This document shows, piece after piece, positions 1,581-64,000 of a DNA stretch of 64,000 bases. The notes under the pieces were generated by a model. The model was not told the DNA's origin, did not search any database, and saw only the letters and a list, made by a program, of their open reading frames with translations. Location of the stretch: the NCBI GenBank assembly GCA_037833965.1, contig AP031353.1, forward strand, positions 8,372,501-8,436,500, read 5' to 3'. Every line of letters begins with the position of its first letter. The stretch's first letter is position 1. This stretch comes from Marchantia polymorpha subsp. ruderalis (Eukaryota; Streptophyta; Marchantiopsida; Marchantiales; Marchantiaceae). Position numbers and translations under genes: made by a program.

Positions 1581-1583
1581 AAG

Positions 1584-19420: not shown

Positions 19421-20344
19421 GTAGATCAAGGCGTTTTGCCTTGGGACTCTTCCAGTTTCGGAAGTGCAGATCAGGAACTCACTTTCTTGGCGTGTTTGTG
19501 CATTTTGGTCCTGGCACCACGTAGAGAAGCTGCAGCATAGCGAAGTTACCGTATGTTGTAGTTGAAGGCCTTCGGCTGAATGTTCAGAGCTAGCACCCGG
19601 TTAGAGACTTGAGTAGTGCGGATCTGCACCTGCGGGTGATTTCTGATGCTCAGAGCCGGCTGCGAGTTAGATACTTGAACAGTTCCCCCTTACTCCTTCG
19701 AGTGACATATCCTGAATGTACTCCTACGGGAAGTTTCCCCTGAATGCCAATGTGAAGTTTTATTACTTCGTGTAAACCTTGGTTTGTAATTCAGGTTGTG
19801 TGTGTGTTACTGGATCGTGTTTTCAGTAAGTTCTCAGTCGGGTCTGCACTCCCTGCGTTTGGTGTGATAGTCGAGGGTGACGTCCACGGCGTATGTAGAG
19901 GCTTCGTTCCGAAGTGGGAAGTCCAGTCCGGGTACCCTCGCTAGTTCCTGGCGGAAGGGCAGTAAAAGCCGGAGTGGGAGGCACTACCTGCAGAACCTCT
20001 GAGTGAACTTGTGAGACACTTTCCTCCTGAAATTCGAAGCGGAGGTCCTGACCGACCTCCGAGTTGTGCTTTTTGCCAGTTTCAGGTGTGTGTGTGTGTG
20101 TGTGTGTGTTGAGTGACCACGCTGTACCGTGCATCCTCCGAGCATCCTCCGAGTTGAGATCCTCCTCCGAGTCGAGCCTTCGAGTCGAGCACTGCAGTAT
20201 TTCTGGGAGTGACAGTCGCCTAGAATTCAAACTCTACAAAAGTCTGTTAAACGTGACACTTTTACTCTGTGTGTTGCCTCTGTCCCTGTGGGTTCGATCT
20301 TTTTACCACCATACTGCAGTTTTAGCCTTTGGTGGGTTATTACA

Positions 20345-24020: not shown

Positions 24021-25927
24021 GCTCCTCGCTAGAACAACCCCGACCGTATGCTCTCCGGGCTGACGGTATACGTAAACCGTTGTCACCGTCACAGTCACCC
24101 AGCGGTTTTCACCGTCACCGTCACCCGGAGGTTCCGCGCTTCCTGCCCAAGACGAGACCGGCCGGCCTTTCGTCTATCATTTCTTGTGAGGCATTTCTCG
24201 GATTTGCGATGGCGGATCAGGCTAGCTCGGAGATGGCGATTTTTCGAATGATTTCTGCGTAATCGTGAGCTGCAACAAATATGTAATCACGTCTTCCGCT
24301 TCTGTTCCAAGTACACCTCGCTGGATGGATCCGATTACAAGACACGGGATGCGAATTGCAGTGACCGATTTGTATGGATCGAAGGTCGTCAAGGCGGCTT
24401 GAACCGAAACCGACTCAGTCCACCTAATCTCGAGTACAGCATGGCCGGGAAAGAGCCGTAGCGGCTTATCTTTGACTAACTGTAATTAGGAGGCGCAGGG
24501 CTTTGTATTTACATGTGCGCGAGAGGAGTGAAAACAGGAACCTTTTCTGGGGCAGTGATTGCAGGGTCCAAAGAAATCTGAACGTGTTCTGGACTGCCGG
24601 TCTCGAGTGGCTCGTCAACTGGGATGTATGGCTTAGGATCTCGAATCAATAGTGCTGTTTCCTGGAATCCACTCGATTAAGTTTGCCGCTATCGAAAGAA
24701 TCTGCTCTGATAATTGATTTTGAAACTCTTAGAAATGTTAGGAAACGCTCTCGACAAATCTCTCTTTCCCTGCTGACGTGCTGATGGTACTATACATGAA
24801 CTCCGAGACAGAACATATGGTTCTCAGTGAAAACGTTTGCTCTTTAAACATGTGCAAACAACTGTAATCAAAATTTAGAGGTACAAGTTTGTTGTTGGTC
24901 TTAATCTGATACATTAGTGAAACGCTCAGCTCAGACGAGTGATGTCATGTGTGAATCAATGTAGGGATGATTGACTACAAAAACTTGACGAACTTCAAGA
25001 AATTCATAAAGTTAGCTGCAAGGAAATGTATAAAAAGACTCAAACTACATTTTGTGAAAACATATTAAATCACTTGTCTATCTTTAGCTTTGTTCCAGAG
25101 TTGTCCACCGAAATTTGTACCCGTCGAAGGTGAACTTTTCTCGAAACTAGTGACTGAAGGTGGACGTATGGTCCTTCCACCCCGTGTAAATCTAAGCGAA
25201 GGATCTTAATAAAGATCAAAGACCACTGCAGTGGTTCCAATCCTTCATCCACGATTTGAGTTTTCAAGCGTTGGGATCAATTCGTCAAGGTGATTTATCA
25301 TTAAATCTGACAAATTTGTATAAGCTTCGAGTGCGTGCTTACAGTAATGTTTCCAGGATTACTTTGCGACTCCACAAAATGAGATGTCTTCTACCGAACG
25401 TACCATTAACTAAAATGAAAACGTCCCATTCACACGAACTTCTCCCCCTCTGAAACACATCTCCCTACTTCCCTCCCTCCCTCCCCTTCTGAAACATTAC
25501 TCTATCTGGTATTCGTGTCGTGTCCTTCCTGTCTGCTACATGATGGCCTCACTTTCCCTTTGCCCCGACCTGGAGGGCATGGTGAGCCGCGGGTTGCCGA
25601 ATCGATGGCTACTCTGCAACGCGAGTCGCTTGTTGAATAGCCACGAGTAGGAGCACGCAGGCAGCTCTGCGCTCGTGCTGCCTTGGCTTGCGTTGCTCGC
25701 TCGGCCTTCGGATTGTCTTGCCTCAAGCCGGGCCGGGCTCGCGTCGCTTTGCATCGCGCCGACACGTGTCTACCATCGGGTGCACATGTGTCGAATTTTG
25801 ATAACAGAGGGTGCCCGCTCGACGGGTGACTTCTTGAGGCGACGGTGTAAAAGGAGAGACCGTCACAACGGTGACCGTATGCCGTCAGCGCACAGTCATA
25901 CGGTCGGGGTTGTTCTAGCCTGCAGTG
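24021..25927. mobile_element. TIR DNA transposon, copy 2
   Basis: The same element as at 1584-3490, with TAGTAAG at both flanks (24014-24020 and 25928-25934). Identical sequence and position relative to DUF247 show that it was copied with the locus rather than by a second transposition. Confidence 0.8.
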
Positions 25928-26209
25928 TAGTAAGCCACGGTCTGGGTCAACGAGTTCCAGTTGCCCTAGGCGTCAGAGGAGCATAAGATGGATAGGACCG
26001 ACCACAGGCAGTGAACAAACCGAGGACATGAGCAGCTCGAAGCCAATGCCACCACTTTGTGTAGTGAGACGTCATAGATCACAGTCAGTGAGATCGAATT
26101 TGTACTGAAATCGCCCTGAATTTGGAGCTGACCCAAGAGGACTCTTCTCTGTTTTATCATGACCTCATTCTGAAGGAGAGGAGCTTTCCTTTCGTACACT
26201 GAGCTCACA

Positions 26210-27847
26210 ATGAAGAGCAGTTCTATACGGACAGATGACACGATGGAGGGGAGTTCTAGACCAGGACAGTCGGAACCGTGGGTTATGTCGATTCCTGACG
26301 AAGTTAACAAGCATGTCCATGAGATAAGGCAAGCGTATGATCGTGATCAGGGTGGTCACGAAAAGACTTGCATGTACCTGATTCCCCGACGGATATGGGA
26401 TGCTGGCAAAGACGATTATCGAGTGCAGATCATTCATTTTGGATTGTATGGGAGGAACCAAGTTGAGATGGATATTATAGACAAAGTGAGGGTGCGTGTC
26501 GTCTCCAGCTTCATGGAACAGTTTAATTTGAAATGGAAAGGACTTTGCGAGAAGGTGGTGGGCTCAGAAGAGAACGCACAAACGTTCCTAGACTTGTACA
26601 ATGAAACTTTTAGAGATAGACACTTGAATGCTTCGAGCGCCATGTCTAGTCTTACTCTGGATGCTGTATTCCTTACGGTGTTCCTCTGTACCAAGATCTG
26701 CTCCAAGCTGCGAGAACCCTCGGAAGGTCTCGAGCAGCTCCAAGAACTTCGACAGATCTTCACCGAGGTGGGTGTTGCTTCCGATCTTCACCAGATCTTC
26801 TCTGACGTCTGGCTAGTTAAGAATCAGATTCCTCTTGAGCTCATAGGGAAGGTTTTGAGTTTGGTGAAGGATGCTCCATCGCCAGAAGATCTCATCAAAG
26901 CCACTGTCGACGAGGCCCTCAGTAGGTTCAAACTTCCCTGTCCACCCTTTCGACGTGCTGATGTGACACTAGAAATCGAGAAGGCTGATGTCCCTCCTCG
27001 ATTTCTCGATTGCAAGCACTTACTGGAATGTCTCTACAATACCATGTGCCCACCTGGCGAGTCGAACGTAAGTACTCAGCACACTGAACGATTGTCAAGT
27101 GCTAACGAGTGTTGGACAACGTGCGGTCGTATTTGTGGATCGTGCACGAAACATGCCACAACTTCGTCCGGGACAGGGGAACCGCAATCGCAAACTGGAT
27201 CTTTTCAGAAGACAGATAGATGGATATCGTTTAGGAAGGCATTGGAGCTGCAAAAAGCAGGCATCCGCGTGAGGGGCATCGATGCTTGCGTCACGGGATC
27301 AGCATTCGAAAGGTCGACGTTTCATTTCACTGCAGTTTTGTCGCTACCGAAGATCCACGTGACGGTCGATACGAGAAGGATTCTGAGAAATCTGTGCGCT
27401 TATGAGCTCGCAAAGACGACATCCCCTCACAGCCGCAAGCTCATCGGCTACCTCTCGGTGTTAGACCATCTGATCGACACCGCGGACGATGTGAGGTTCC
27501 TGAGAGAGCTTCACAGCTCTGTTCTCTCCGTCTCTCTGCCAGGAGACGATGCCGACCAGCAAGTCGCTGATCTGTTCAACAATCTGCTGCGAGGCTATTC
27601 CAGTACTGATATCCAGTACACGGACGACCTGCGGAAGCTCCACAACGACGTGAGTTTTCTCTTCGAGAACGAGCTCAGAAACATCTCCATACTATATTTC
27701 GGAAGAATCCGGCGCGAGGCCGAGCGCTTCCTCCGCAGGCTTATAGACAGGCCGTGGCTTATGATTTCGCTATCAGCCGCCGCTTCCCTTCTGGCCATGA
27801 CCTGCGTTCAGACAACGTTCACCGTCCTCGGCTACTACTTGCGATAG
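26210..27847 (+). CDS. DUF247 domain protein, copy 2 (intact)
   Basis: Encodes the same 545-residue sequence as the gene at 3773, with IPRRIW, VFLTVFL and NQIPLEL blocks and the C-terminal anchor after DRPWLMISL. Start and upstream context (CTCACAATGAAG) are identical. With the third, broken copy at 29962 it forms a real local tandem array; the first gene is its long-range duplicate. Absolute identity means the duplication is recent, or the two copies are an assembly or haplotype artefact. Function unknown. Confidence 0.85.
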   Translation: MKSSSIRTDDTMEGSSRPGQSEPWVMSIPDEVNKHVHEIRQAYDRDQGGHEKTCMYLIPRRIWDAGKDDYRVQIIHFGLYGRNQVEMDIIDKVRVRVVSSFMEQFNLKWKGLCEKVVGSEENAQTFLDLYNETFRDRHLNASSAMSSLTLDAVFLTVFLCTKICSKLREPSEGLEQLQELRQIFTEVGVASDLHQIFSDVWLVKNQIPLELIGKVLSLVKDAPSPEDLIKATVDEALSRFKLPCPPFRRADVTLEIEKADVPPRFLDCKHLLECLYNTMCPPGESNVSTQHTERLSSANECWTTCGRICGSCTKHATTSSGTGEPQSQTGSFQKTDRWISFRKALELQKAGIRVRGIDACVTGSAFERSTFHFTAVLSLPKIHVTVDTRRILRNLCAYELAKTTSPHSRKLIGYLSVLDHLIDTADDVRFLRELHSSVLSVSLPGDDADQQVADLFNNLLRGYSSTDIQYTDDLRKLHNDVSFLFENELRNISILYFGRIRREAERFLRRLIDRPWLMISLSAAASLLAMTCVQTTFTVLGYYLR

Positions 27848-29282
27848 CAGGCCATAGCAATGGTGAACTCTCCGTCTCGAACCCAGTAACCTTTCAGAGC
27901 TGGCCTTCCGCAAATGGACACGACATGGTTGGTGTCGCAGTCATGTGCTTCATAGATAGATGTAAATGTCGTTGTAATATGCACCATTCAAAGAGCAAGG
28001 AGTGCTCCAATATCTGCTCGATTGAGCTCGATTGAGCGATTGATGAAACCATGAAGCTCCTGCATCGATTGAAAGAATCATGAAAACTGTGTTTGCGTTA
28101 TTAAGTGTGTGGAATGGGTTACTACCGTGATGACTGTTGAAACTCAAGGGCCATTCACAATTGACCATGTCGACCACAACAGTCCAATGTTATAGAGCAG
28201 AGTTATGTGGATTTTCTGCTTCGATTTAGTGCATAACACGTTATTTTGGAGGATTATTTCTGGGAATTCAGTTATGGTCAGAACCGATTGCGTTAGTGAA
28301 CTAGATAGATAGTGTCTTGATTATTTATAACCTTCTTTTCTTTCGAGTTTTTATTTTAATCTCTATGTTATCTTTTGTTTGGCACTAACTTGAGTGTATA
28401 ACTAGTTAACATTAAGTTAAAGTTAACCCTAGGTTTAGCTATCAAATATATATATATATATATTCATTCATATTGGCTTCTCTAATCTTTTGACGCAGCA
28501 TTGAACCTCGATCCCATCAAGAGTCTTCTTGTTGATCTTGTTGTACCTTCGTTCATCACACACTCTTACAGAGACTGCAACTTTACAAGCACATATTTGG
28601 CAATTTAAGCCTGCTGATTGATACAAAGAGGAGCAAGCACTGCGTCATTGATTTCTAGTGTGTTTGTATCATCAACAGCAGCAGTGAATTTAAACCCACC
28701 TCCGGTGGACGATGGGAATGAGCTTGAACTCTCACGGGGCCCCTTAGGCGGAGCTTAAAACAGAGAAGGAAAACCCAACCAGCGATTATACAAATTTACG
28801 ATATTTTAGACCTAGCTTAAAGTTATTGCCTAGAAGAGGAACGAACAAAATTAGAGGTAGTTTTAAAGATCATCTTAAGAAGAACGAGACAATACGAAAC
28901 ACCTCGCGGATTCTCTCATGCTCGATGAAGGTTGCTTAATGTCAGTGGTTAGCAAGATCATATGCCAGCAGTGTTTAAGCAAGAGGAACATATTTGAAAG
29001 AGGCTTCTACAAAATGTACCACGACCACCACATGTATACCCTGCAGACTTCAAGAATCCGGACCCCAACAGCCCATTTCGTGTCAGTTGCACTCGAGCCG
29101 AGTCTTGAGCGATTCCATCTGATCAAGCTTAAATAACCGTACAGAAGCAAAAGCTGATCTTCCTCTGCTCAGTTGGACAACGCCGTTCAACGACTAGGAT
29201 ATCAGTGACGGACCATCGCACTTGTCATGATGCGTCACAGCCAAAGGAAGGAGAAAGTCGTGTTGGAATCTGGTAATCGAAG

Positions 29283-32125
29283 CAACGCTGGTTCTCAGGT
29301 CTGGTCTACTACCAAAGTTTGAGTAGTCCAGTTGACCTTTTGATACGGCCGACGCAAATCAAGTGTAGCCTCTTTACTTTTTCACGTACAATGCATCGCG
29401 AGCTTGAGCTCTGTACAATGCTGACGCAAAAGGACAAGAGATTCCTACCAGATTTCCCGCATGTCACTTTAGTCAAAGGTGGAGTCCCTTCTCTCGCCAC
29501 TCTCACTCTCAGGGCATCGTAAATCCACAGTGAAAAAAGCTGGGTTCCCACCTCTCGCCACTGCTCCTCACTCTCAGGGTGTCGTAAATTCATATTGAAA
29601 ACGTCAAGGCCAATATAGTACGTACTTTGCGACAAGGATTTGGAGGTCGACATGTCCGTATGTACGTGAAAGTATCTATGTTCATGTCGCGTCTAGTAAG
29701 CCACGGTCTGGGTCAACGAGTTCCAGTTGCCCTAGGCGTCGGAGGAGGATGAGATGGATAGGACCGACAGTGAACAAACGGAGCACATGAGCAGCTCGAA
29801 GCCAATGCACCCGCTTGTATCGAGACGTCATAGATTACAGTCAGTGAGATCGAATTCGTATGGAAATCGCCCTGAATTTGGAGCTGACCCAAGAGGACTC
29901 TTCTCTGTTTCATCATGAGCTCATTCTGAAGGAGAGGAGCTTTCCATTCACTGAGCTCACGATGGAGAGCAGTTCTAGACTAGAACTGTCGGCAGCGAGG
30001 GTACAGCCGGCACCGTGGATTCTGTCGATTCCTGACGAGATTAAAAAGGGTGCCATAAGAAAAGGCAAGCGAATGATCGGGATCAGGGTGGTCGCGGAAA
30101 GGCATGCATTAGCCCGGTTCCCCTACGGATTCTGAATGCTGGCAGTGAGGATTATCGCGTGCAGATCATTAATTTGGGATTGTATACGAGGAGCAGGGTG
30201 AAGATGACTGCCATGGACAGAGTGAGGTTTGATGTCGTCAACAGCTTCATGGAACTGTTTGAGTTGAGGTGGGATGTACTTTGCGAGAAGGTGGTGGGCT
30301 CAGAAGAGAACGCACATACGTTCCTAGACCTCTACGATGAAACTTTGAGAGATAGACACTTGGATGCTTCGAGCGCCATGTCTAGTCTTACTCTGGATGC
30401 TGTATTCCTTACGGTGTTACTCTGTATCGAGATATAATCCAAGCTGCCAGAACCCCAGGGAGGTCTGAAGCAGCTCCAAAAACTTCGACAGATCTTCACC
30501 GAGGTGGGTGTTGCTTGCAATCTTCACCAGATCTTCTCTGACGTCTGGGTAGTTCCGAACCAGATTCCTCTTAGGCTCATAGGGAAGGTTTTGAATTTGG
30601 TGAAGGATTCTCCATCGCCAGAAGCTCTCATCAAAGCCACTGTCGACGAGGCCCTCCGTAGGTTCAAACTTCCCTGTGCACGTGCTGATGTCCATCCTCA
30701 ATTTCTCCATTGCACGCACTTGCTGGAATGTCTCTACATTACCATGTGCCCACCTGGCGAGTCGAACGTAAGTCCTCAGCACACTGAACGATTGTCAAGT
30801 CCCAACGAGTGTTGGACAACGTGCGGTCATATTTGTGGATGGTGCACGAAGCATGCCACAATTTCGTCCGGGACAGGGGAACAGCAATCGCAACCTGGAT
30901 CTGTACAAAAGCAGTTTAGGACGGCATCGGAGCTGCGAAAAGCAGGGATCCGCGTGAAGGGCATCGATGCTGGCGTCACGGGCACAGCATTCGAAAGGTC
31001 GACGTTTCATTTCACGGCAGTTCTGTCGCCACCGAAGATCCACGTGACAGTCGATACGAGAAGGATTCTGAGAAATCTGTGCGCTTATGAGCTCGCAAAG
31101 ACGACACCCCTTGACAGCCAGAAGCTCATCGGCTACCTCTCGGTGTTGAACAATCTGATCGACACTGCGGACGATGTGAGGTTACTGAGACAGCTTCAGA
31201 GCTCTGTTCTCTCCGTCTCTCTGCCAGCAGACGATGCCGACCAGCAAGTCGCTGATCTGTTCAACAATCTGCTGCAAAACTATTCCAGTACTGATATCCA
31301 GTACACGGCCGACCTGCGGAATCTCCATTACGACGTGAGTTTTCTCTTCGAGAACGAGCTCCGAAACATCTGCATAAGAAATTTCGGAAGAATCCGGCAC
31401 GAGGCCGAGCGCTTCCTCGGCAGGCTTAAAGACAGGCCGTGGCTTATGATTTCGCTATTAGCCGCCACCATCCTTCTGGCCATGACCGGCATTCAGACAG
31501 CGTACACCGTCCTCGGCTACTACAGGCCATAGCAATGATGAACTCTCCGTCTCGAACCCAGTAACCTTTCAGAGCTGGCCTTCCGCAAATGGACACGACA
31601 TGGTTGGTGTCGCAGTCTATGTGCTAAAGTAATTGTAAACAGATGTAAATGACGTTGTAATATGCATCATTCAAAGAGCAAGGAGTGCTCCTATGTCTGC
31701 TCGATTGAGCTATTGTGATGAAGCCATGAAGCTCCTGCGACGATTGAAAGAATCATGAATACTGTGTATGCGTTATTGCGTTACGTGTGTGGAATGGGTC
31801 ACTACCGTGACGACTGTTGAAACTCAAGGGCCATTCACAATTGACAATGTCGAGCACATGTGATGCGATGTGTGAATATCTGGATTTTCTACTTTGATTC
31901 AGTGCACAAGACGGTACTCTGGAGGATTCTTTCTGTGAATTTAGTTATGGTCAGAACTTATTGCCTTAGTGAACTCGATAGATGGTGTCTTGATTATTTA
32001 TTAGCTTCTTTTATTTCGAGTTTTTATTTTAGTCTCTATTATTATGTTAACTTTTGTTTCGTCCTAACTCGAGTTAGTTCCTAATTAAAATTAAGTTAAA
32101 GTTAACCCTAGGTTTAGTTATCAGT
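29283..32125 (+). repeat. Third DUF247 unit (diverged), without the transposon
   Basis: It starts with the unit head (29283-29700), passes through a single TAGTAAG into the DUF247 upstream region (29701 onward equals 3498 onward), the broken gene and the diverged 3' flank, and ends at a TA tract. It preserves the pre-insertion state of the TIR transposon and shows the natural size of the unit, about 2.8 kb. Confidence 0.8.
29962..31532 (+). pseudogene. DUF247 pseudogene
   Basis: Aligned with the intact copies from ATG 29962 (CACGATGGAGAGC), the frame is lost by small indels after SIPDEI (about 30035-30150), recovered at about 30159, then stopped by TAA near 30435 where the intact gene has a Cys codon (TGC). 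Reading resumes in the same relative frame and continues through the NQIPL block and the C-terminal hydrophobic anchor to the stop at 31532. A shorter protein starting at 30504 would keep the C-terminal half and the anchor but lack the N-terminal DUF247 motifs, so I call it a pseudogene. Confidence 0.8.
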
Positions 32126-46522: not shown

Positions 46523-47458
46523 TCAAGCTCGCTCATAAAGAGTTCTGTAAATCCTTCCGCCTTGAGTTAGAACGTGAACCTCTCGCTCACTGGGCAGTCC
46601 CAGAGGATTGTCTACAACCCAGCCTTCGGAATCACAGGGAGCAGAAGAGCTCCTTACTAAGGTCAACCCTAAATGCTCGTCGAATTGCTTTCTCATGTCA
46701 ATGGCTACTTCTTTCACGTCAGACTGGATGAAAAGTTTTCCTTTGGGGGCCAAATGCCGAATGATGGTGTCCACGAGCTGTTTCTGCACCACCCTCCGTT
46801 TGTGGTGCCTCTGCTTGAAGTGAGGATCCGGGCACAGAATTGTCACATATGCAAGAGGGCCAGGGTACGAGGCGAGCAATGTGTCCAAATGGACGGTGGC
46901 GTTGGTGGTGACGAAATGTATGTTGGTAAGGTCGAGCTCCTCAGCCCACTGTTTCGCTCGGTCCACCAGCCGCTCTCGGACGTCGATGCCCAGAAAATTC
47001 TCGGCAGAGTTTCTCTTAGCGAGGACCATGACGAATCTGCCGCTTCCACATCCGATATCCACCGTGAGAGGCCGAGAGCAATCTGTGAAGACCTCGTCCC
47101 AGTTTGGGGTTTTCACAGGCGCCATGAGAGAGGCCTTCAAAGGGTTTACATGCTGCCTGATGCGACATCCTCCCACCTGCTCCTGGACGGGCTTGAGCTC
47201 CAGCTCGGCGAATGTCAGCTCAATTTGTTTCGCACTAATCAAGTGTTTGGATCCGCCGCCCCCACCCCCTGCTGGGGCCTTGACATTGGCATTGGTATTA
47301 GCATTAGCAGGCTCCGTGTGAATGCATGCGCTGCACTCTCGCGCTCGGGGCGGCGTCGCCTTGCAATTGTACGAAACGTAAGAGGCTAATCCGCGAGAAG
47401 ACAATTCACAAGTTCGCCTGGCGTTCCAAAATGAGCCTGCTCTCTGTACCAGCGCCAT
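46523..47458 (-). CDS. tRNA (guanine-N7-)-methyltransferase, TrmB type, probably organellar
   Basis: Transfers a methyl group from S-adenosylmethionine to N7 of a guanine in tRNA (m7G46 in the family). From ATG 47456-47458 the protein has 311 residues; an in-frame ATG at 47500 would add 14. The N-terminal 75 residues are Arg/Ser/Ala-rich without acidic runs, as in a plastid or mitochondrial transit peptide, followed by a Gly stretch. The catalytic part shows the SAM motif VDIGCGSGRFVM, then NFLGIDVRERLVDRA, FVTTNA, the substrate motif CPDPHFKQRHHKRRVV and GKLFIQSDVKEVAIDM, all diagnostic of TrmB. The gene has no introns and lies about 1 kb beyond the end of the thioredoxin gene on the same strand. 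Confidence 0.85.
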   Translation of the reverse strand: MALVQRAGSFWNARRTCELSSRGLASYVSYNCKATPPRARECSACIHTEPANANTNANVKAPAGGGGGGSKHLISAKQIELTFAELELKPVQEQVGGCRIRQHVNPLKASLMAPVKTPNWDEVFTDCSRPLTVDIGCGSGRFVMVLAKRNSAENFLGIDVRERLVDRAKQWAEELDLTNIHFVTTNATVHLDTLLASYPGPLAYVTILCPDPHFKQRHHKRRVVQKQLVDTIIRHLAPKGKLFIQSDVKEVAIDMRKQFDEHLGLTLVRSSSAPCDSEGWVVDNPLGLPSEREVHVLTQGGRIYRTLYERA

Positions 47459-47500
47459 AGCTCCCGAATCTCTCGTTCTCTCTCGTTCCTTCGCAGTCAA

Positions 47501-48371
47501 CGCCGACGAACTCTCTTCTCAACGCCATATCTCTGGACCCGACATTACCTCCACCACCATTCGGTCCCTCTTCCTCTCTCCGAAACTTACAAGATTGACT
47601 TCAGCTCCACTACGTCGGTTCTCTTCGGCCACAGCTGTGCTCCGAAATTTGATTCCAGTAACTTTGCAGCTTCGTTGGTAGGGTTAGAATGGGCGCCGCT
47701 GGAGAATTTCCAACAATGTCTACGAGCTGCGGGCCCTGGCCAGACGCAAGGAGCCTTTTGCTCTTCACGTACAATGGGCGTTGAATATGGCCTGAGTCCG
47801 AGCTTACTCTCGCCCCTTCTACTCTAGTTTCAAAGGACGGGGCGCCCTGTGTTTCATATATCGTTGAGAGCTATTCACTCACCTACGCAGCGGGTCGGCA
47901 CATCTACGGCCCGAGAATGGAGGAGCATGTCCTTTTCGCTTTACATATTTTTTGGTCGATGTGTTATCCAAAACCAAAGCTAAAACGTCGAGAGTTGGCT
48001 ATTCCTATTTTTCTAGAACCCTCCAGAGTCTCACTTTTCCCGTGTTCGAGGTGAGGAATTACATTTATGTGTTTCGCTCACCGGCTCACAAAGATCTTTG
48101 AACCATGACAGTGCTGGTGATTAGGGCTGCGTACGGCTGCAATCCAGACTTGGGATCATCAATACAGAGGGTATTCGTAGATGACCCTTGCGTAATGCAG
48201 AGGTTACTATCGGAATCAAACACCGAAAATAGATGCCGAAAATTTAAATAGTCCTCGTGGGATATCAATCTCTTGCTGGGAGAGCAGGCTTGATTGACTT
48301 GATTGTTTGCATGCACACACTGATGGACACGGGAGAAAGGCGAGCGGCCAATTGTACATCGAAGAGTAATC
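47501..48371. other. TrmB promoter region and spacer to the thioredoxin gene
   Basis: Contains the upstream region of the minus-strand TrmB gene and the sequence beyond the thioredoxin polyadenylation signal. No further gene or RNA seen. Confidence 0.4.
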
Positions 48372-55007: not shown

Positions 55008-55120
55008 ATGGCGCGACCGATCAAATTGCATGCTTTGCGAGTTCCTGAAGTCGGACTACGTGCTCATCGTAGTGCTTTAATTCTCTCGAAGATGGAATTC
55101 TGTTGTGGGGTTGGAATTCC
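55008..55120 (+). pseudogene. Left part of a giant-LTR ORF split by the methyltransferase element
   Basis: From ATG 55008 it reads MARPIKLHALRVPEVGLRAH, then LSKMEF, aligning with the start of the Trp-rich domain of the other LTR ORFs. A missing base before the expected LLWGWN shifts the frame, so this copy was already damaged. It is cut at 55120, where the methyltransferase retrotransposon begins; the domain resumes at 61091. Confidence 0.75.
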
Positions 55121-55413
55121 TGTCATGTAGTTACGAGTCGGCTCACGAAGTTCAGACACTTACTATATTTAGCCGTAAAGTTAGGGTTCCGGTCACGAGG
55201 GGTATACAGTCGGGGACGGCTCGAAGAACGTCAGTTTTTCGAGTCGAGCCTGGAAGCGTTGGGAGCGAAGAGTGACTTTCCCTTTTGCGTCGACCTGGAT
55301 TCTCCGAGTGTGGAGTGGGTTGGGCTTGACTCATGTTTGTGACGGTGACGGTTTATTGCCAGTAGGGTAATTGACCGACGGGAATTCCAGTGGGGAATCT
55401 CCCGTCTATTTCA
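55121..55413 (+). repeat. 5' LTR of the methyltransferase element, 3' part missing
   Basis: Matches 60680-60971 of the 3' LTR with about four substitutions. The remaining 119 bases of the LTR (the piece present at 60972-61090) are absent here; an inverted LTR fragment follows instead. Confidence 0.8.
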
Positions 55414-55493
55414 CTCGAAGAACTCAACGCTTCCAGGCTCGACTCGAAGAACTGACGTTCTTCGAGCCGTCCCCGACTGTATACCCCTCGTGA
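55193..55493. repeat. 69-base inverted repeat at the 5' LTR
   Basis: Positions 55193-55261 within the LTR are repeated in reverse at 55425-55493 with one mismatch; the loop is 163 bases. The reverse copy stands where the LTR end, PBS and leader should be. The local unit GAAGAACGTCAGTTCTTC inside each arm is itself nearly palindromic. Confidence 0.85.
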
Positions 55494-55506
55494 TCCCGAG
55501 AAATAA

Positions 55507-57261
55507 ATCTCACATGATAGCTCGCAGTTTGGAGTTCGTGCTGTGGTTACATCAGCAGAGTCATATGATGTGCTTGTTGGTGGAGTGGTGTTATACCCGA
55601 TGGGCTTTCGGATGGACTATTGGACGGAGATTGCCGCATATCGTCCTGGTTGGCAGTCAGGAGATGGACGTCTGAGCGAGCTGCCAGTGAGATTTATTTC
55701 TCGGTATCGACCTCTTGGATCTTCATCAGCGGTCTTGGCATCTGTTGCGGGTTTTAGCGGAGTGCTTACCTGGCCCGGTGAGTTGTTGGCGGGGAACATG
55801 TCTGCAGACGATACCTCACTCTACGAGGATGTGGAGGAGGTTGTGAGTTTCCCAGCGGCGGTGACTTCACCCTTAGATGTTCCACTGTGGAGTTCGTGCC
55901 AGGCACTACAGTTGGAAGCTGATAGGTTGGTAAAAAAGGCTTGGAGTGAAGCCTCGTTACCAGCAGAGCCAGAGAGGGCTTCAGATGATCGGCTAGTTAG
56001 TGGTTCTAGCGCATTGTCTCCATTGGTTACTACACCTATTGCATGGGAGTATTCCTCAGAGGGCGTTTGTTTGCTGGATCTTTTTGGTGGAATCAGCACA
56101 GGTTTGGCTGCAGTGTTGCAGTCAGGTATTCTCGTACGGAGATACTTATATGTGGAGAAGGACGAGACTGCACGTCGAGTCTCTTCACGACATGTTGCAC
56201 AGTTGATGCGGCGTTTTCCTTCGTTGTTGCCGCGATCAGCTGTCCGAGGATTCCAGAAGGCGTTGCCTTCAGACATTTCGTTGCTGGGGGCGCCAGACCT
56301 TGACCGCGTTGGCCATATTGATATGGTGATTGCGGGCTGGCCATGTCAGGTACACACACGCGCTGGACATGGGACAGGGTTGCATGATCCCAGATCTCGG
56401 ATGTTTTGGGAGATGATGCGAGTGTTACGTCATCTCCAAGTGCAGCAGACACGTTCTCCAGCATACATTCTGGAGAACGTACCATTGTTGGGTGACACTC
56501 GGGCCAAGTTGATGGCGAGTGTCCATCAAGTCCGAGCATGGATTGGATCAGCAGTACTGTTGGATGCTGCGAGGGTTGGATCACGGGCGCATCGTGCACG
56601 TTTGTGGTGGACCAACCTTTTGCCACGTGAGATATTGCGTCATGCCTATGATTCGGTGAAGCGTGATACTAAACTCACCGTTGACAGTATCTTGGATGTT
56701 TCCCGGCACTCTCAAGTAGTGAGAGTTGCTGACAGGTCACCTATGGCATTGGTGAACCGCGTAGGTCAGCCTCGGATGGCTTTACCTACATTTGTCAGTT
56801 ATCCGGCATCACACGCGTATCGTGATGGGGGACCTGGACTACTATGGGACAGTACCCTACATCAGTTGGTGGAGCCCAACGCTGATGAGAGAGAGCGTGC
56901 GATGGGGTTTCTTACTGGTGTGACCGCGGCTTCTTCAGTTTCAGAGGCGTCGCGTCGTCAGGTTTTGGGTCAGGCTATGGACCTGAACTGCTTGACGTGG
57001 ATTGTGAGCTTGGGTTTGGCCGAGCAACGCCGTTTGCGCGCAGATTTGGTGGTTGTAACACCACTTATTAGCTCATTGCCTACCGGGACGGTAGTAGCAA
57101 TGGCTGGGGGCGACAGGCGAGATATTTGTCATCCTTGGAGTTTATGGGACGTGACGAAAGGACTTGCCAGAGTTGCAGCCCATGCAGTTGGAGAGGATTC
57201 TCACGTGGAGGTGGCTACGAAGGAGGGTACGGAGAACCCTTCTTTGCAGTGTGTAGCGTAG
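55507..57261 (+). CDS. Retrotransposon pol, part 1: protease end plus DNMT3-like cytosine-5 DNA methyltransferase
   Basis: The frame is open from 55507 without a proper start (5' truncated); numbering below counts from the GTG at 55543. Residues 1-50 (SYDVLVGGVVLYPMGF, YRPGWQSGDGR) resemble the tail of a Ty3 protease. Residues 175-490 carry C5-methyltransferase motifs in canonical order: I LDLFGGISTGLAAVL (178-192), II VEKDE (204), IV GWPCQ with catalytic Cys268, VI ENV (311-313), VIII RVGSRAHRARLWW (344-356), ERAMGFLTG (451-459) and X GQAMDLNCLTWI (476-487). The phrases LFGGISTGL, SRAHRARLWW and RRQVLGQAM are closest to DNMT3 (LFDGIATG, SAAHRARYFW, RQRLLGRSW), not CMT or MET1, and unlike DRM the motifs are not permuted. 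No stop or frameshift interrupts it. It ends at a UAG of leaky type. Confidence 0.85.
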   Translation: MSHDSSQFGVRAVVTSAESYDVLVGGVVLYPMGFRMDYWTEIAAYRPGWQSGDGRLSELPVRFISRYRPLGSSSAVLASVAGFSGVLTWPGELLAGNMSADDTSLYEDVEEVVSFPAAVTSPLDVPLWSSCQALQLEADRLVKKAWSEASLPAEPERASDDRLVSGSSALSPLVTTPIAWEYSSEGVCLLDLFGGISTGLAAVLQSGILVRRYLYVEKDETARRVSSRHVAQLMRRFPSLLPRSAVRGFQKALPSDISLLGAPDLDRVGHIDMVIAGWPCQVHTRAGHGTGLHDPRSRMFWEMMRVLRHLQVQQTRSPAYILENVPLLGDTRAKLMASVHQVRAWIGSAVLLDAARVGSRAHRARLWWTNLLPREILRHAYDSVKRDTKLTVDSILDVSRHSQVVRVADRSPMALVNRVGQPRMALPTFVSYPASHAYRDGGPGLLWDSTLHQLVEPNADERERAMGFLTGVTAASSVSEASRRQVLGQAMDLNCLTWIVSLGLAEQRRLRADLVVVTPLISSLPTGTVVAMAGGDRRDICHPWSLWDVTKGLARVAAHAVGEDSHVEVATKEGTENPSLQCVA

Positions 57262-57267
57262 CAACCA
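57259..57267 (+). promoter_or_regulatory. Candidate readthrough stop UAG-CAA-CCA
   Basis: The stop ending the methyltransferase frame is TAG CAA CCA, which fits the UAG-CAR-YYA consensus of tobamovirus-type readthrough. The same frame continues open into RT. The other in-frame stop of this pol (58606, TAG TGG TTG) lacks the consensus. Confidence 0.5.
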
Positions 57268-58608
57268 TTGACAGTGTCGCCTCCCTCTAGTGTGCCTATG
57301 GAGGAGGAATGGGAGCCATTGATTGGTTCCCAGATCACAGGAGGAGAGAGGCGACGATTGACACAATTCCTACGAGATTATAGGAGTTGTTTTGCTTTCA
57401 GTATGAAGGAGTTGGGTGCGTTGATTGGACCCGGTATACGGATAGAATTGGCTAGTGATACGCCAATCTTCCGTCGTCCTTATCGATACAGTGAGATGGA
57501 GAGAGATTTGATTCGGAGTAGGACGTTGGACCTACTGGAGGCTGGACTAGTGGAGTTATCGCATGGTGAGTATGCGTCAGCCACTGTCATGCCGGTGAAG
57601 AAGGATGTACATGGCAACTACACGGATAGGCGCATGTGTGGAGACTACCGTCCTATCAATCGGCAGACGAAGTCCGATAAGTATGCCATGCCTACACCTG
57701 AGGAGATCTTCGATGTGGTGGGACATGCGAGGATTTTTAGTACTTTGGATCTTCGGGCAGGATACCATCAGTTGCCAATTCGGGAGGAGGACAAAACCAA
57801 GACAGCGTTTTGGGGCGTCAACTCCCATGGCAAGGATTGTTTGTATCAGTGGCGATTCTTACCCTTTGGGTTGAAGAATGCACCTGCCGAGTTTCAGAGG
57901 GTTATGGACAGAATCCTGGCGGGGCTGGATTTTGTCAGATGTTACATTGATGATATCTTGGTGTTTAGTGACACTGTGAAGCAACACCAGATACACTTGC
58001 AGATTGTGTTTGAGCGATTGAGGGCTCATGGTTTGAGGTTACATCCTGGGAAGTGTAAGTTCTTCCAGGAGAAGGTTGAGTACTTGGGTCATGTGATATA
58101 CCCAGGTGGTTTAGGAGTTCAGCAAGCAAAGGTGGAGGCTATTGCACGCATCCCTCGTCCCACGGATGTGAGTAGAGTTCGTGCATTTATGGGTTTAGCG
58201 AACTACTATCGGAGGTATGTGAAGGGGTTCAGTGCTATAGCCAAGCCTTTGAACCAGTTGCTGAAGTCAGATCAGGAGTGGCAATGGGGAGATGAGCAGG
58301 AGAGAGCTTTTGTTGAGCTCAAGGCCAGGTTGGTGGCCGCTCCCATCTTGAGGAGACCTATCAGAGGTCGTCCATACCAATTGCACACTGATTGGAGTAT
58401 GTTGGGACTTGGAGCGGTGTTGACGCAGCATGATGATGAGGGCAAGGAGTTTGTGGTTGCGTACGCTAGTCGTTCGAACAATGCAGCGGAATCGCGGTAT
58501 AGTTCGTACGAGGGAGAGTGCTTGGCAGCGGTGTGGGCTGTGGCGCACTTCAGGTGTTACTTGTTTGGTACGCAGTTCACCCTTGTTACTGATCATCAAC
58601 CGCTCTAG
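57262..58608 (+). CDS. Retrotransposon pol, part 2: reverse transcriptase and most of RNase H
   Basis: In frame with the preceding methyltransferase. First Met codon is 57298; the more likely expression is by readthrough of the UAG. RT blocks are complete: FRRPYRYS, VMPVKKD, RMCGDYRPIN, FSTLDLRAGYHQLPI, FLPFGLKNAPAEFQRVMD, the catalytic CYIDDILVF (about 57939-57965), KCKFFQEKVEYLGHVI and FMGLANYYRRYVKGFS. RNase H follows with HTDWSMLGLGAVL and YEGECLAAVWA. It ends at TAG 58606-58608 in the motif TDHQPL-stop-WLM, where relatives have a basic residue, so this second stop looks like a simple inactivating mutation. Confidence 0.85.
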   Translation, partial: QPLTVSPPSSVPMEEEWEPLIGSQITGGERRRLTQFLRDYRSCFAFSMKELGALIGPGIRIELASDTPIFRRPYRYSEMERDLIRSRTLDLLEAGLVELSHGEYASATVMPVKKDVHGNYTDRRMCGDYRPINRQTKSDKYAMPTPEEIFDVVGHARIFSTLDLRAGYHQLPIREEDKTKTAFWGVNSHGKDCLYQWRFLPFGLKNAPAEFQRVMDRILAGLDFVRCYIDDILVFSDTVKQHQIHLQIVFERLRAHGLRLHPGKCKFFQEKVEYLGHVIYPGGLGVQQAKVEAIARIPRPTDVSRVRAFMGLANYYRRYVKGFSAIAKPLNQLLKSDQEWQWGDEQERAFVELKARLVAAPILRRPIRGRPYQLHTDWSMLGLGAVLTQHDDEGKEFVVAYASRSNNAAESRYSSYEGECLAAVWAVAHFRCYLFGTQFTLVTDHQPL

Positions 58609-60390
58609 TGGTTGATGGAGTCCGACAAGCTTACAGGGAAGCTTGCACGGTGGGCTCTCATCTTACAGGAGTACGACTTTCAGGTGGTGCATAGACCTGG
58701 AGTTGCGAACCTAGATGCCGATGGTTTGAGTCGAAACCCATGCACTAGCCAGGAGGATGACACTGGAGCTAGATGGCATGGTGAGGTTGATGAGGAGATG
58801 GTGCCTGGTTGGCATGCATCTGCCTTCATGTGTTGGTTACGTGGGAACTCCAGCAGAGAGGATCATCTGACATCTTACTCTAGTCAGAGAGTAGATGGTC
58901 GATCTCCAGATCCTGAGGTTGAGGATGGTGGTGTGGATCAGCGTGATGTACACGATGATGCATTGGTGTTGGAGTTCCTACGGACCAGCATGGTGCCTGG
59001 CACAGTGGGTGCCAAGGAGCGAGATCGTGTTCTCCAACGGGCCAAGAGGTACCGATTGGAGGGATCACATGTTCTCCGAGTATGGGAGGACGGTAGGGTA
59101 CGAGTAGTACCACATCCAGCCCAGAGAGCACGCATTGTGAGGCATGCTCATGAGGAGTTGGGACATTTTGGAGTGAAGCGTACATACAGCTTACTCCTTG
59201 GTCAGTATTGGTGGCGTGGTATGCATACTCAGGTACAGCAGTTGGTATCACGTTGCATGGTTTGTGATCGAGTGAGGGCATCATTCAATGCCCCGACACC
59301 AGTGTTACATCCATTACCCATCATGGGGTTGGGTTACCGTTGGAGTTTGGACTTTGCTGGACCACTACCTTTGACTGTACGACATCATCGGTATGTGTTG
59401 GTGATGGTGGAGCATTTCTCCAAGTGGATTGAGTTGGTGGCATTACCTGACAAGGCAAGTGAGGGAGTAGCGTATGCTTTTCTTGACCGAGTGCTTAGTC
59501 ACTATGGTGCACCAGCTGAGGTGTTGACCGATCAGGGAACGGAGTTTCATGGTGAGTTTCAGGTCTTGTGCGACAAGGCACTGATTGATCATTGGACCAC
59601 GTCGCGAGATCATCCAGAGGCGGATGGTTTAGCTGAACGTGTTGTACAGACGGTGAAGAGGGCGTTGCGCAAGTATGGCCTCCACAAAGGTCATCTTGGG
59701 GACTGGGATATCCAGTTACCGTGGTTGGCCATGGGATATCGGTTCAGTCGGCAGGCATCCTTGGCTTCCTTCTCACCATATTTTCTATTGTACGGCCGAG
59801 ATCCAGACTTGCCAACATCGATTCGTCGTGAGTCTAGCGAGGTGGTGAACCTTGATGACCCGAATATGTGGGTGAGAGTATGTTCTCAACGTGCAGAGCT
59901 CTTTCGAAGAGTTATGCCTGCAGCGTTTGAGAATCTTGCGATTGCTCAACATAGAGATACGTTGCGGTATGCAACCATTCGGGGAGGAGGTTATCGACCA
60001 TCAATTCGTAGATTCCATGTGGGAGACTACGTCTATATACAGCAGACTGCACCGACGACATTGGATGTGACGGCGGGACGCACCATCTTGCGGGTGCGGG
60101 AGGTGTTACCTTCTGGAGTTCTCCTGTTGGAGGGTCGTGACGGCGTTGTTTGGAAGGATCATGTGCGCAATTGTGCGCCATGCCACCTCCCAAACGTAGA
60201 TGGCACTATGGACCCAAGCTTAGCGATAGTACGTGCTAGCTTGAGGTGCATGCTGTGTGGGTCGGCTGGTCAAGCGGCCCGTATGTTGGTGTGTGATAGG
60301 TGCTCTAGGGGATGGCACATGTCGTGCCTAACTCCGCCTATCGTTGTTATTCCGGCTGGACGATGGGTTTGTCCTCGATGTACTTCATAG
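58609..60390 (+). CDS. Retrotransposon pol, part 3: RNase H end, integrase and C-terminal PHD finger
   Basis: Continues in the same frame after the 58606 stop. It opens with the RNase H end (GKLARWALILQEYDF, DADGLSR). The integrase has an intact HHCC finger (HEELGHFG ... CMVCDRV, about 59143-59275), then the core D,D,E positions in SLDFAGP, LTDQGTEF and PEADGLAERVV (59340-59645), and a C-terminal segment with FHVGDYVYI. The last 48 residues, from 60244, form a PHD finger: C-x2-C, C-x2-C-x4-H-x2-C, then WVCPRC. PHD fingers read histone H3 tails; Ty3 elements more often carry a chromodomain at this place. The frame is otherwise unbroken to TAG 60388-60390. Confidence 0.85.
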   Translation, partial: WLMESDKLTGKLARWALILQEYDFQVVHRPGVANLDADGLSRNPCTSQEDDTGARWHGEVDEEMVPGWHASAFMCWLRGNSSREDHLTSYSSQRVDGRSPDPEVEDGGVDQRDVHDDALVLEFLRTSMVPGTVGAKERDRVLQRAKRYRLEGSHVLRVWEDGRVRVVPHPAQRARIVRHAHEELGHFGVKRTYSLLLGQYWWRGMHTQVQQLVSRCMVCDRVRASFNAPTPVLHPLPIMGLGYRWSLDFAGPLPLTVRHHRYVLVMVEHFSKWIELVALPDKASEGVAYAFLDRVLSHYGAPAEVLTDQGTEFHGEFQVLCDKALIDHWTTSRDHPEADGLAERVVQTVKRALRKYGLHKGHLGDWDIQLPWLAMGYRFSRQASLASFSPYFLLYGRDPDLPTSIRRESSEVVNLDDPNMWVRVCSQRAELFRRVMPAAFENLAIAQHRDTLRYATIRGGGYRPSIRRFHVGDYVYIQQTAPTTLDVTAGRTILRVREVLPSGVLLLEGRDGVVWKDHVRNCAPCHLPNVDGTMDPSLAIVRASLRCMLCGSAGQAARMLVCDRCSRGWHMSCLTPPIVVIPAGRWVCPRCTS

Positions 60391-60558
60391 GGGTAGATGA
60401 CTTGATCTTCACATGTTATGAATTGCAGATAGGCGACTAACGATGGGGCGACATAACACCCGGCCTACTGGTTCGCGCACCCACGAAGGTGTATAGCATG
60501 TAGTTGTAGATGGGGCTACCTGGGAGTCAGAGGGACCTGACCGCCAGCTAGGGGGGCG

Positions 60559-60677
60559 AGTTGTGACATTTGAGTGTGTACTCTCTCGCGCCTTATATGT
60601 GTGCATGTGTGTGCGTATGTGTATGTGAGTAGCATGTCAGCGATGTAGAGTGTATGGCGATATGTATTCGCACGACA
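60559..60677 (+). repeat. Extra copy of the LTR terminal piece before the 3' LTR
   Basis: 119 bases (AGTTGTGACATTTGAG ... CGCACGACA) identical to the end of the 3' LTR (60972-61090). It is joined to the 3' LTR by two bases, GC, forming the palindrome GACAGCTGTC. A purine-rich run, AGGGGGGCGAG, just before it could be the polypurine tract. Confidence 0.85.
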
Positions 60678-60679
60678 GC

Positions 60680-61090
60680 TGTCATGTAGTTACGAGTCGG
60701 CTCACGAAGTTCAGACACTTACTATATTTAGCCGTAAAGTTAGGGTTCCGGTCACGAGGGGTATACAGTCGGGGACGGCTCGAAGAACGTCAGTTCTTCG
60801 AGTCGAGCCTGGAAGCGTTGGGAGCGTAGAGTGACTTTCCCTTTTGCGTCGACCTGGATTCTCCGAGTGTGGAGTGGGTTGGGCTTGACTCATGTTTGTG
60901 ACGGTGACGGTTTGTTGCCAGTAGGGTAATTGACCGACGGAAATTCCAGTGGGGAATCTCCCGTCTATTTCAGTTGTGACATTTGAGTGTGTACTCTCTC
61001 GCGCCTTATATGTGTGCATGTGTGTGCGTATGTGTATGTGAGTAGCATGTCAGCGATGTAGAGTGTATGGCGATATGTATTCGCACGACA
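60680..61090 (+). repeat. 3' LTR of the methyltransferase element, 411 bases
   Basis: Runs from TGTCATGTAG to CGCACGACA and ends exactly at the target duplication TTCC. The first 292 bases match the 5' LTR, the last 119 match 60559-60677. Confidence 0.75.
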
Positions 61091-61560
61091 TTCCAGACTA
61101 TAGTCCAAGAGTGGGATAACAATGGGTTGCGGAAGCCGCCGGGTTATCGAGGCAATCCTGATACATGTCAGATCTGGAATTGGAAGAAGGTCCTTGGTTG
61201 GTGCGCGGGAGATGACGGCGATCTTACCTCTGACAGCGAGAATGTCAAGGTAACGCGAGAAGAGGAAAGAGCCTACGTCGCACTGTTTAAGCATCCTCGC
61301 ACCGGGAAGAATGGTTATCGCACCGTCTGGTACCACGACTGATTGAGGTGGAACGTGACGATGGCATTGATGCAAATTCTCCGTCCGTCTCGACCCACTT
61401 ACATGATGACTTGGCAGGTCGGATTTGTGGAGAGAGCATTGAGGGGAGACCGCATCCATTGGTAGCGTATCTTCTGGTTTGTAACCCGGCAACACATTGG
61501 GCTAATTCCAGAGGGTCTTGCAACCTCCGGGCTGACTCTCACTCAGGTTTAACTCCAATG
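61091..61560 (+). pseudogene. Right part of the split giant-LTR ORF, degenerate
   Basis: Resumes the Trp-rich domain: QTIVQEWDNN, WNWKKVLGWCAGDDGDL, ENVKVTREEERAY, then a TGA near 61340 where homologues have Arg or Lys, MALMQILRPSRP, WQVGFVERALRG and HW followed by TAG. With 55008-55120 it is the N-terminal domain of one LTR ORF; the disordered and coiled-coil parts are not recognisable downstream. Confidence 0.75.
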
Positions 61561-62000: not shown

Positions 62001-62303
62001 AATTCGTCTACGTCCGAAGATCTTCGGATCTTCGTGTCTTCGGCGGAGCCTTTTATGGATGTACGAAGAGCTACGTCTTCGGCGAAGACATTGGAATCAA
62101 TTTCAAATCACGCAACGGGCCGGACAATGTTCACACGCGTCGGGAGTTCTACTGGGCGCGGGAGAAGGCAATGTTAGGGCTTCGAAGGTAAGGGCAGTAC
62201 GAGGAGACTTCGCACCGACATTGCGATATCGAGCAAGAACGAGCGAGAGAGAGAGGAAGTGAAATCGAGCCAACCCGCAATTAGCGAAACCCAAATTGAA
62301 GAA

Positions 62304-64000
62304 ATGGCGCCCAAGAAGAGTGAAAAGGTGAGGAAATTGGTTCCCTTGAAGGTGATTTACAAGGAATTGATACCCTTCAGAAGCGAGTTCAGTGAATTGC
62401 GGCTTGAATTCCTTTTGTGGAATTGGAATTGCGTCTCGGCGAGTATCTGCAAGGAGGTAATGGACAAGAGCACGATCGAAGGCGAGGAGCTCCGCGGTAA
62501 TCCCATGCTGTGGACTATCGAACATTGGACGACAGTACTAGGATCCTGTGCGGGCAGCGAAGCAGATTTGCTATTTGAGAAGAATAGCGTAGAACTTACG
62601 CGCGGCGAGGAATTCTCTTACAGGCCTCTCTTTGAGTCTAGAAGACAGGGAACGAATGGATGGAAGACTGTCGATTACAAAGATCCGAAGAGAAGTGTGA
62701 TCGCGTTGAGTATCATGCACATCTTATGGCCGGCACACACGACTTATGTGACGGCTTGGCAAGTGGGGTTCTTTGAACGCATTCTGAAGGGACTGCGAGT
62801 ACATTGGGCAAGGATCTTTCACGATCTTGTCTGGGTGAATGCAGGCTCCCGGTGGACGGGACCGTTGACCAATCACATCACTCCCTTCTTAGTGAATTTC
62901 TATCGAGGGATAGGATTGCTTACGAGAGAGGAGGAGAAGCGATTTCCGAGAGAGCGGGAAATCCTGACATTTGAGTCCAGTGAAGGAACCGAAGACGAGA
63001 ACCGGCTTCCCTCAATCCCAACACACACAACAGCTCGAGGACCAGTTCAGGTGGACGTGGTTCAAAGACGGGAGAAGCCAAAGAGACGATTGGCAAAGAG
63101 AAGGAAGGTCGTGAGTGATGACGAGGAGGATTTGGCCCACGAAGTAAGAAGGATGGATATGGATGAAAGTGGAGCGAAGCAGCACAGAGCTCGCGCAAGA
63201 CCAAAGAAGAGGGCAAAACGGAGGATGATGACAGTTGAGGTGTCGGACAGTAGCGTGGAGAAGACGGTGGCACCAATTGTAAACACATCCGAAGTCGCAG
63301 CTAGCGAGGTAATGCGGCCTGTGGAGATAGGAGTACCTTCGGAGGTGACAGTCGAAGTCCTAGCAGACATATAGGCAGAACCTTTGAAGGAGGAAACGGA
63401 ATTGGTAAGTCCGGTTTCTTTGTTTTCGAAGCAGACGCGGTCTGCGCAGGGCGAAGAGACACCACAGATGAAGATGAACGAGGACTTGGAGAAGGAGTTC
63501 ACTTTGAGCGAGGAGATTCTGGAACAGGTTGTCGCACAGATAGGAGTAACGGTGGTAGAAGCTGAGGGCATTACACTGCCGACATCTCCGGTAAAAGAGG
63601 TGAGACTCGAAGAAGGGAAGAAGACTTCGGGCAAAGATGTGAAGACATTAGAAATTACATTTCCTAAATTCTTGCAGGATAGTGTAGTTTCATTGTTGAA
63701 GTACTTGGACGGGAAGAGAGGGAAGTATGCCGTAACGGAGGAGCCAGGATTCTATGTATCGATGATTAGGAATAGGACGAAGCTTAAGAGAGCAGTTGCA
63801 GTAAAGAGGGAGTGGAATTCCGCAACTGCATTGGTATGGGAGCGAGAAGCCCAGTTTCGGGAGAAGGAAAATGAGTGCGAAGTGCTACAGTTGAATCTAG
63901 AGAAGGAATCCGGGCGCTGTGAAGAGTTGGAGGAGACATGTGGAGGACTTCGTATCTTCAATGAGAATGCCCAGAAGGTAACAGTGGATTTGATGGCGAG
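62304..64000 (+). pseudogene. Another giant-LTR-type ORF, one premature TAG, cut by window end
   Basis: From ATG 62304 (MAPKKSEKV) the frame encodes the Trp-rich domain in a diverged form (ELRLEFLLWNWN, WTTVLGSCAG, DYKDPKRSVIAL, HWARIFHDLVW, NHITPFLVNFYR), then a Lys/Arg-rich middle (KRRLAKRRKVVSDDEED, RARPKKRAKRRM). TAG at 63372-63374 interrupts, after which the same frame stays open to 64000 and encodes LQDSVVSLLKYLDGKRGKYA and a coiled coil aligning with the D and E ORFs. One point mutation therefore separates it from a full-length ORF; it could also be read as a 356-residue truncated protein. The 3' end is outside the window. Confidence 0.7.

Follow-up and report, generated by a model that had tools for sequence, protein, structure and literature searches.

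A DNMT3-type methyltransferase within a multi-copy, recently active Ty3/gypsy-type retrotransposon of the liverwort Marchantia

A 64,000-nucleotide stretch of the genome of Marchantia polymorpha subsp. ruderalis (GCA_037833965.1, contig AP031353.1, forward-strand positions 8,372,501 to 8,436,500; hereafter the window) contains one defective copy of a Ty3/gypsy-type retrotransposon. The element is present in many copies, has been active recently, and has taken up a DNMT3-type cytosine methyltransferase (DNMT). The damaged element occupies window positions 55121–61090 and carries the methyltransferase in an open reading frame (ORF) at 55543–57261, in which a protease (PR) remnant is followed by a complete DNMT3-type domain. 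Here a genome parasite seems able to set the chemical mark with which plants normally silence such parasites, and its host belongs to a liverwort genus used in laboratory genetics. The window copy itself is a dead, defective fragment, with gag and the protease active site gone and a nonsense codon in RNase H; functional conclusions therefore rest on the family and not on this copy. An earlier sequence-only reading of the window had placed a DNMT3-type domain between the protease and reverse transcriptase (RT) of a Ty3/gypsy element in a land plant, and this arrangement proved to be present genome-wide.

The methyltransferase domain spans 56065–57033 (+ strand), with the catalytic Cys codon at 56344–56346. 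Its C5-methyltransferase motifs stand in the canonical, unpermuted order, PC and ENV included; the two host DRMs fetched have a permuted order as judged by eye. As the sequence-only reading had maintained, the motif set is complete and canonically ordered in the window ORF, and all five motifs recur in 19 of 20 fetched family copies (chosen for an open first ORF, ORF1, as described below), the last motif differing in the remaining one. DNMT3 accounts for 29 of the 30 nearest solved relatives by sequence, and a structural search with the element domain returned DNMT3 in the best 34 of 50 rows listed. A fold search of BFVD gave phage and giant-virus C5-methyltransferases with TM-scores (query length) of at most 0.63 among the rows listed, and no clear origin. 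The residue following PCQ in the window copy differs from that in all 20 other copies examined. Among relatives, Glu stands for Pro before the catalytic Cys (GWECQ) in P0163, P0172, P0174, P0177, P0175, and P0179, with Calypogeia among the sources, and also in P0240 from Sphagnum.

A protein search of the 241-Mb genome yielded 870 first-look candidates; 76 of them were scored. The matched segment is free of stops in 43 of these. As to the full-length, gag-bearing copies that had been proposed as a check, 23 of the 76 keep a stop-free frame of at least 1,350 aa, long enough for Gag-PR-DNMT. Twenty of these 23 long-frame copies were fetched, a set biased toward intact ORF1 because of how it was drawn; all 20 have an ORF1 of 1,351–1,365 codons from stop to stop (first ATG at codon 63 or 85), and in 15 of them the second frame (ORF2) is open to 1,042–1,045 codons. 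Genome-wide absence or decay of the domain, against which the sequence-only reading had to be held, was not what we found: in an RT search (3,711 first-look candidates, 95 RT copies scored), a DNMT match at most 5 kb upstream is listed for 77 of the 95. Of the other 18, for which 320 nt each were fetched, 14 match the DNMT/linker tail over at least 318 nt and four over 41–294 nt (the linker only in L113), so that loss of the DNMT in a few decayed copies is possible. No clear case of a DNMT-less subfamily with a closely related RT was seen among the 95 scored RT copies of the 3,711 candidates, a comparison to which more distant RT families do not belong.

Constraint on the domain was estimated as the ratio of nonsynonymous to synonymous divergence (dN/dS, Nei-Gojobori), using copies with intact ORF1, of which the 15 whose second frame is open served for ORF2. 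Between two subfamilies the ratio is 0.12 for DNMT, 0.15 for gag, 0.16 for PR, 0.06 for RT, and 0.10 for RNaseH-integrase; within subfamily 1 it is 0.24 for DNMT and 0.25 for RT. The DNMT is under purifying selection, with a constraint about like that of gag and integrase and weaker than that of RT. The 5′ and 3′ copies of a repeat that we call B are identical over 293 nt in copies L030 and L028, differ at three positions in L024, and show four mismatches over 292 nt in the window; some insertions are therefore recent.

The full element comprises two in-phase ORFs, Gag-PR-DNMT (~1,300 aa from the first ATG) and RT-RNaseH-integrase-PHD (~1,045 aa), with UAG CAR YYA between them. The domain had been described as lying uninterrupted in one frame from protease to RT, which holds for the methyltransferase and fails for the frame, as a single TAG parts DNMT from RT. 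In the window this putative leaky-stop context reads TAG CAA CCA (57259–57267, +), and RT with the first part of RNase H follows in phase at 57262–58605 (+). The next six bases fit CAR YYA exactly in 70 of the 76 scored copies, the window included (these copies are related and not independent); three of the other six have TAG CAA CAA, and in three the site is rearranged or was not found. Among the 18 further RT copies the context is exact in 16 and the stop is lost in two. An independent case is L001 (CADCWO010000201.1), a 9.2-kb contig with identical ends that is filed as cyanobacterial and holds a complete element with the same ORF layout, 48% DNMT identity, and TAG CAA TCA at this site. The predicted full-length proteins P0084 and P0086–P0090 also stop ~100 residues past the DNMT, before any RT. 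CAR YYA after UAG has been described as essential for readthrough of the tobacco mosaic virus (TMV) type in plants, and the rice gypsy element RIRE2 is cited there as a readthrough candidate (PMC2754532).

Since the DNMT lies on the Gag side of the UAG, it would, if the stop is leaky, be made together with Gag, and RT-integrase at a low readthrough level. Standing before this presumed leaky stop in a family with many intact copies, the enzyme is probably packaged, which makes the arrangement specific and testable. The whole reading that we favour on balance, if narrowly, is that the DNMT would be packaged with Gag and would methylate the element's own complementary DNA (cDNA), whether linear or circular, ahead of its insertion by the DDE integrase; the PHD finger may help choose chromatin. 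cDNA methylation by a particle-borne enzyme has been proposed for DIRS elements (de Mendoza et al., 2018, PMC5890265), and it is our best guess for the function here. If that holds, part of the de novo methylation on new insertions would be owed to the element rather than to the host. The observed/expected ratio of CpG is 0.70–0.75 in the ORFs of four copies versus 0.98 in the first 55 kb of the window.

An alternative that we consider unlikely, yet still worth weighing, is that the enzyme works in trans, on the host genome, or labels new insertions once they are integrated, so that copies either blend with methylated chromatin or damp their own activity to a tolerable level. DNMT3 enzymes work on chromatin, and a PHD finger encoded by the same element fits such a role. 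A benefit through slowed transposition has likewise been discussed (de Mendoza et al., 2018, PMC5890265). The Gag linkage through the presumed leaky stop would instead suggest an enzyme bound in particles and not free in the nucleus. Distinctly less probable is that the domain is kept not for catalysis but because it binds nucleic acid or contributes to the structure of the Gag polyprotein; although the replacement of Pro by Glu in motif IV of some relatives would suit this idea, none of the 20 fetched copies shows a change in the catalytic Cys, in ENV, or in the AHR motif, and an alignment of 29 diverse rows shows no variation at Cys and Glu.

The borders of the element are unusual. Full copies have the order B-coding-A-B-A, where A is a second repeat; in the window, 5′ B (55121–55413, +) begins with TGTCATG and ends with TTTCA, inner A (60562–60677, +; TGTGACA...CACGACA) is followed by the dinucleotide GC (60678–60679, +) and 3′ B (60680–60972, +), and a terminal A (60975–61090, +) is identical to the inner one. 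Two identical terminal long terminal repeats (LTRs) at the integration borders, as expected of Ty3/gypsy elements, were not found, the borders being the start of B and the end of A. At exactly these borders a perfect 4-bp target-site duplication (TSD) stands in all seven copies in which both were seen, representing two subfamilies: TTCC in the window (55117–55120 and 61091–61094), GGTT in L024, TGTG in L030, AGGC in L028, TCTT in L029, TGAT in L038, and TCTT in L039. L029 and L038 share these ends and have the form B-coding-A; in L036 a 5′ B was not found in the stretch fetched. The tyrosine recombinase of DIRS-like elements is lacking, an rve integrase with H2C2 standing in its place. The outer ends TGTC...GACA joined with GC reproduce the inner A/B junction CACGACAGCTGTCA, which contains the palindrome GACAGCTGTC and is conserved in L039 and L001, and the inner B/A junction, TTTCA-GT-TGTGACA, resembles the joined ends of a classical A-B LTR, given that the polypurine tract directly precedes A. 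In our model, an A-B-coding-A-B cDNA would be circularised and reopened at the A/B junction, and B-coding-A copies would be products of a one-LTR circle or later recombinants. That B-coding-A-B-A is merely an ordinary LTR element altered after insertion, with no special integration form, seems very improbable: tandem and irregular repeat arrays do exist, yet the exact TSDs recur in seven of seven copies from both subfamilies, and the Klebsormidium element KnitGypsy is likewise described with DIRS-like repeats (PMC5890265). As for these arrays, at the 3′ end a tandem unit follows in L027 and an irregular A-B-A-B-A array is present in L033; both may reflect recombination of circular forms.

The priming layout of the Marchantia element looks Tf1/Tcn1-like, and its cDNA is probably self-primed as in Tf1. 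In L030 and L028 the 11 nt that directly follow 5′ B, the putative self-primer binding site CTCGAAGAACT (55414–55424, +, in the window), are exactly the reverse complement of AGTTCTTCGAG, which lies at B offset 112; in the window's 3′ B the complement lies at 60792–60802. A match of 10–11 nt is retained in L039. In L001 the corresponding site after the presumed U5 end, CTTGACAAAGAT, pairs with ATCTTTGTCAAG; site and partner differ in letters from those of Marchantia yet pair, so that both changed together. Complementary 10–13-mers stand at the right places in L030, L028, L039, and L001. The polypurine tract CTAGGGGGGCGAG (60548–60560, +) was read from the sequence and has near-identical counterparts in L039 and L001.

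Named matches among those listed come from Marchantia, Calypogeia, Sphagnum, Riccia, and Closterium; no protein named Klebsormidium occurs among the matches listed, which include the best 120 of 261 and the best 120 of 205 in two listings of protein relatives. The DNMT precedes RT in the Marchantia element, L001, P0174, and Closterium P0272. DNMT/RT identities to the Marchantia element are 93/95% for subfamily 2, 48/65% for L001, 38/53% for P0174, 39/45% for Closterium, and 30/45% for P0201, so ranked nearly alike over the six elements, an order that fits a long shared history of the two domains. In other relatives the DNMT follows RNase H (P0201) or directly precedes integrase (P0175, P0179, P0182), and P0179 also carries a G-patch domain. 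In a tree of 29 rows with an arbitrary root, the 23 element DNMTs form one clade (99/96), apart from the single host DNMT3, the two host DRMs, and three enzymes of viral contigs; the host taxa are too few to show the donor. A scan of viral contigs had given 11 loci with weak matches only (24–40% identity), of which seven were taken as possible outgroups, four frames being dropped as apparently misframed. A scan of genome contigs gave two loci, the eukaryotic-type element L001 and a weak 34-residue match, L002. Plant-type retrotransposon sequence also turned up in bacterial metagenome bins, namely L001 (cyanobacterium) and P0094 (Obscuribacterales), probably through binning errors. An accidental fusion of a host DNMT3 at a single locus, which the sequence-only reading had named as an outcome that would refute it, or a decaying passenger domain, would suit the broken state of the window copy but is refuted by the same junction in dozens of copies genome-wide, by purifying selection, by relatives in other bryophytes, and by the host DNMT3 (L054, recognised by eye from its motifs), which is only 26–28% identical to the Marchantia element DNMTs.

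Several observations weigh against the proposal of a packaged enzyme that methylates cDNA before integration, or against parts of it. The selection test covers intact copies only, and the DNMT ratio of 0.12 is twice the 0.06 of RT. P0174 and Closterium P0272 pass from DNMT into RT without a stop, so that a leaky stop is not general to the relatives and the UAG arrangement is a feature of the branch of the Marchantia element. L024 lacks the self-primer match, and the B-coding-A forms fit a one-LTR circle but also later recombination between two A copies. With no reliable root, the tree does not place the element clade inside host DNMT3. The CpG comparison has no DNMT-less element as a control, 6-kb blocks of the window range over 0.80–1.13 with the window copy at 0.82, and the depletion in element ORFs may stem from host methylation. 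Finally, KnitGypsy-Dnmt3 gave no detectable methylation in yeast, a result that its authors judge inconclusive (de Mendoza et al., 2018, PMC5890265).

Six copies have 5′ leaders of 2.8–4.3 kb that share only their last 0.6–1.6 kb, and most of the upstream leader of four copies (L029, L039, L038, and L024) was searched for in the genome. In the L029 leader (L049:1006-3100), ~1.07 kb matches C6:26133212-26134799 at 96–100% in four blocks, the three stretches of the source locus between these blocks are absent in the manner of introns, and a 390-aa ORF runs antisense to the element. About 1.3 kb of the L039 leader (L048/L039) matches C9:6906466-6907778 at 98–100%; an antisense ORF there bears a weak resemblance to nucleoside transporters (E=7.6e-5, short of the curated cut-off). 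The L038 leader (L050) combines pieces of several loci, one of them with a gap of 63 bp, and the L024 leader is shared with two other places in the genome, no clear single source being found. Host-transcript capture is thus well supported in L029 and likely in two further copies, and as a general rule of the element it is unproven. A broader reading, which we put forward only tentatively and regard as somewhat doubtful, would join these strands: a Ty3-like lineage across green plants, beyond Klebsormidium, would long have kept a DNMT linked to its RT; in Marchantia the DNMT would be a Gag-level particle component, by way of the leaky UAG, methylating cDNA before integration; the self-primed circle would be opened at an internal repeat junction; and the same route would repeatedly pick up fragments of host messengers beside the primer site.

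In the window copy, gag and the active-site half of the protease are replaced by inverted pieces of repeat B (55193–55261) and of the protease region (55676–55708), which form fold-back junk at the deletion point (55425–55525). The C-terminal retropepsin remnant at 55543–55690 (+) was delimited by eye against full-length P0081 and L025; retropepsin is not recognised by Pfam in L025, where a DSG motif is seen by eye. The nonsense codon in RNase H lies at 58606–58608 (+), the remaining RNase H, H2C2 zinc finger, and DDE integrase at 58609–60387 (+), and, C-terminal in the integrase ORF, the PHD finger at 60247–60381 (+; PF00628, E=4e-10; also in L025 and L001). The RT-RNaseH-integrase order is recognised by Pfam. 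Elsewhere, the window holds a 7-kb direct duplication (1–7078 and 22438–29509, 99.9% identity) with the same 557-aa ORF in both duplicates (3737–5410 and 26174–27847), inverted 2.5-kb repeats of 93% identity (15472–17937 and 20347–22814), and related-looking long ORFs at 11014–13665 (−), 16706–19381 (+), 20340–21761 (−), and 62259–63374 (+), the last of which had no match in a Pfam search. By eye, a Gag-like ORF of another retroelement lies at 8291–9400. A fragment at 9387–9590 shares 38% identity with P0014 in its RNase H part, and an ORF at 46523–47518 (−) looks, again by eye, like a TrmB-type tRNA methyltransferase and is probably a host gene.

A DNMT3 in a Gypsy Pol is already known from KnitGypsy-Dnmt3 of Klebsormidium nitens, an LTR Gypsy element with DIRS-like repeats whose Pol ORF includes a Dnmt3 (de Mendoza et al., 2018, PMC5890265), and the DNMT3 type, to which the sequence-only reading had attached novelty, is therefore not itself new. 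Why a parasite should encode its own silencing mark was left open by that paper, and a 2025 survey (PMC12344493) mentions such elements in streptophytes, citing it. In the open-licence literature we recognised no report of a DNMT-bearing retrotransposon in bryophytes, and found none that describes a DNMT placed before a leaky stop on the Gag side, or one combined with a PHD-tailed integrase. The features not encountered there are a conserved UAG-CAR-YYA with the DNMT on its Gag side, the B-coding-A-B-A order with 4-bp TSDs and a PHD-tailed DDE integrase, Tf1-like-looking priming, and host sequence in some leaders, spliced and antisense in one.

Compared by description only, KnitGypsy-Dnmt3 resembles the Marchantia element in its Dnmt3 within a Gypsy Pol, its DIRS-like repeat order, purifying selection, and intronless copies; the Marchantia element differs in its land plant host, a DNMT on the Gag side of a TMV-type stop, a PHD-tailed integrase, and documented TSDs with a putative self-priming site, the words PHD, readthrough, Gag, and protease being absent from the main text of PMC5890265. 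SymbioDIRS-Dnmt3 of Symbiodinium, both tested copies of which methylate CG de novo in yeast, shares a Dnmt3 in a retrotransposon and split repeats, whereas it has a tyrosine recombinase and belongs to an unrelated retrotransposon class (PMC5890265). Tf1/Sushi and the plant Tcn1 chromoviruses share predicted self-priming with the Marchantia element but are mostly chromodomain carriers, and methyltransferase, PHD, and Marchantia do not occur as words in the main text of that study (Neumann et al., 2019, PMC6317226). TMV type I readthrough has the same six-base context after UAG (PMC2754532), and in the Marchantia element the stop, presumed leaky, separates a methyltransferase-bearing Gag-PR product from RT-integrase.
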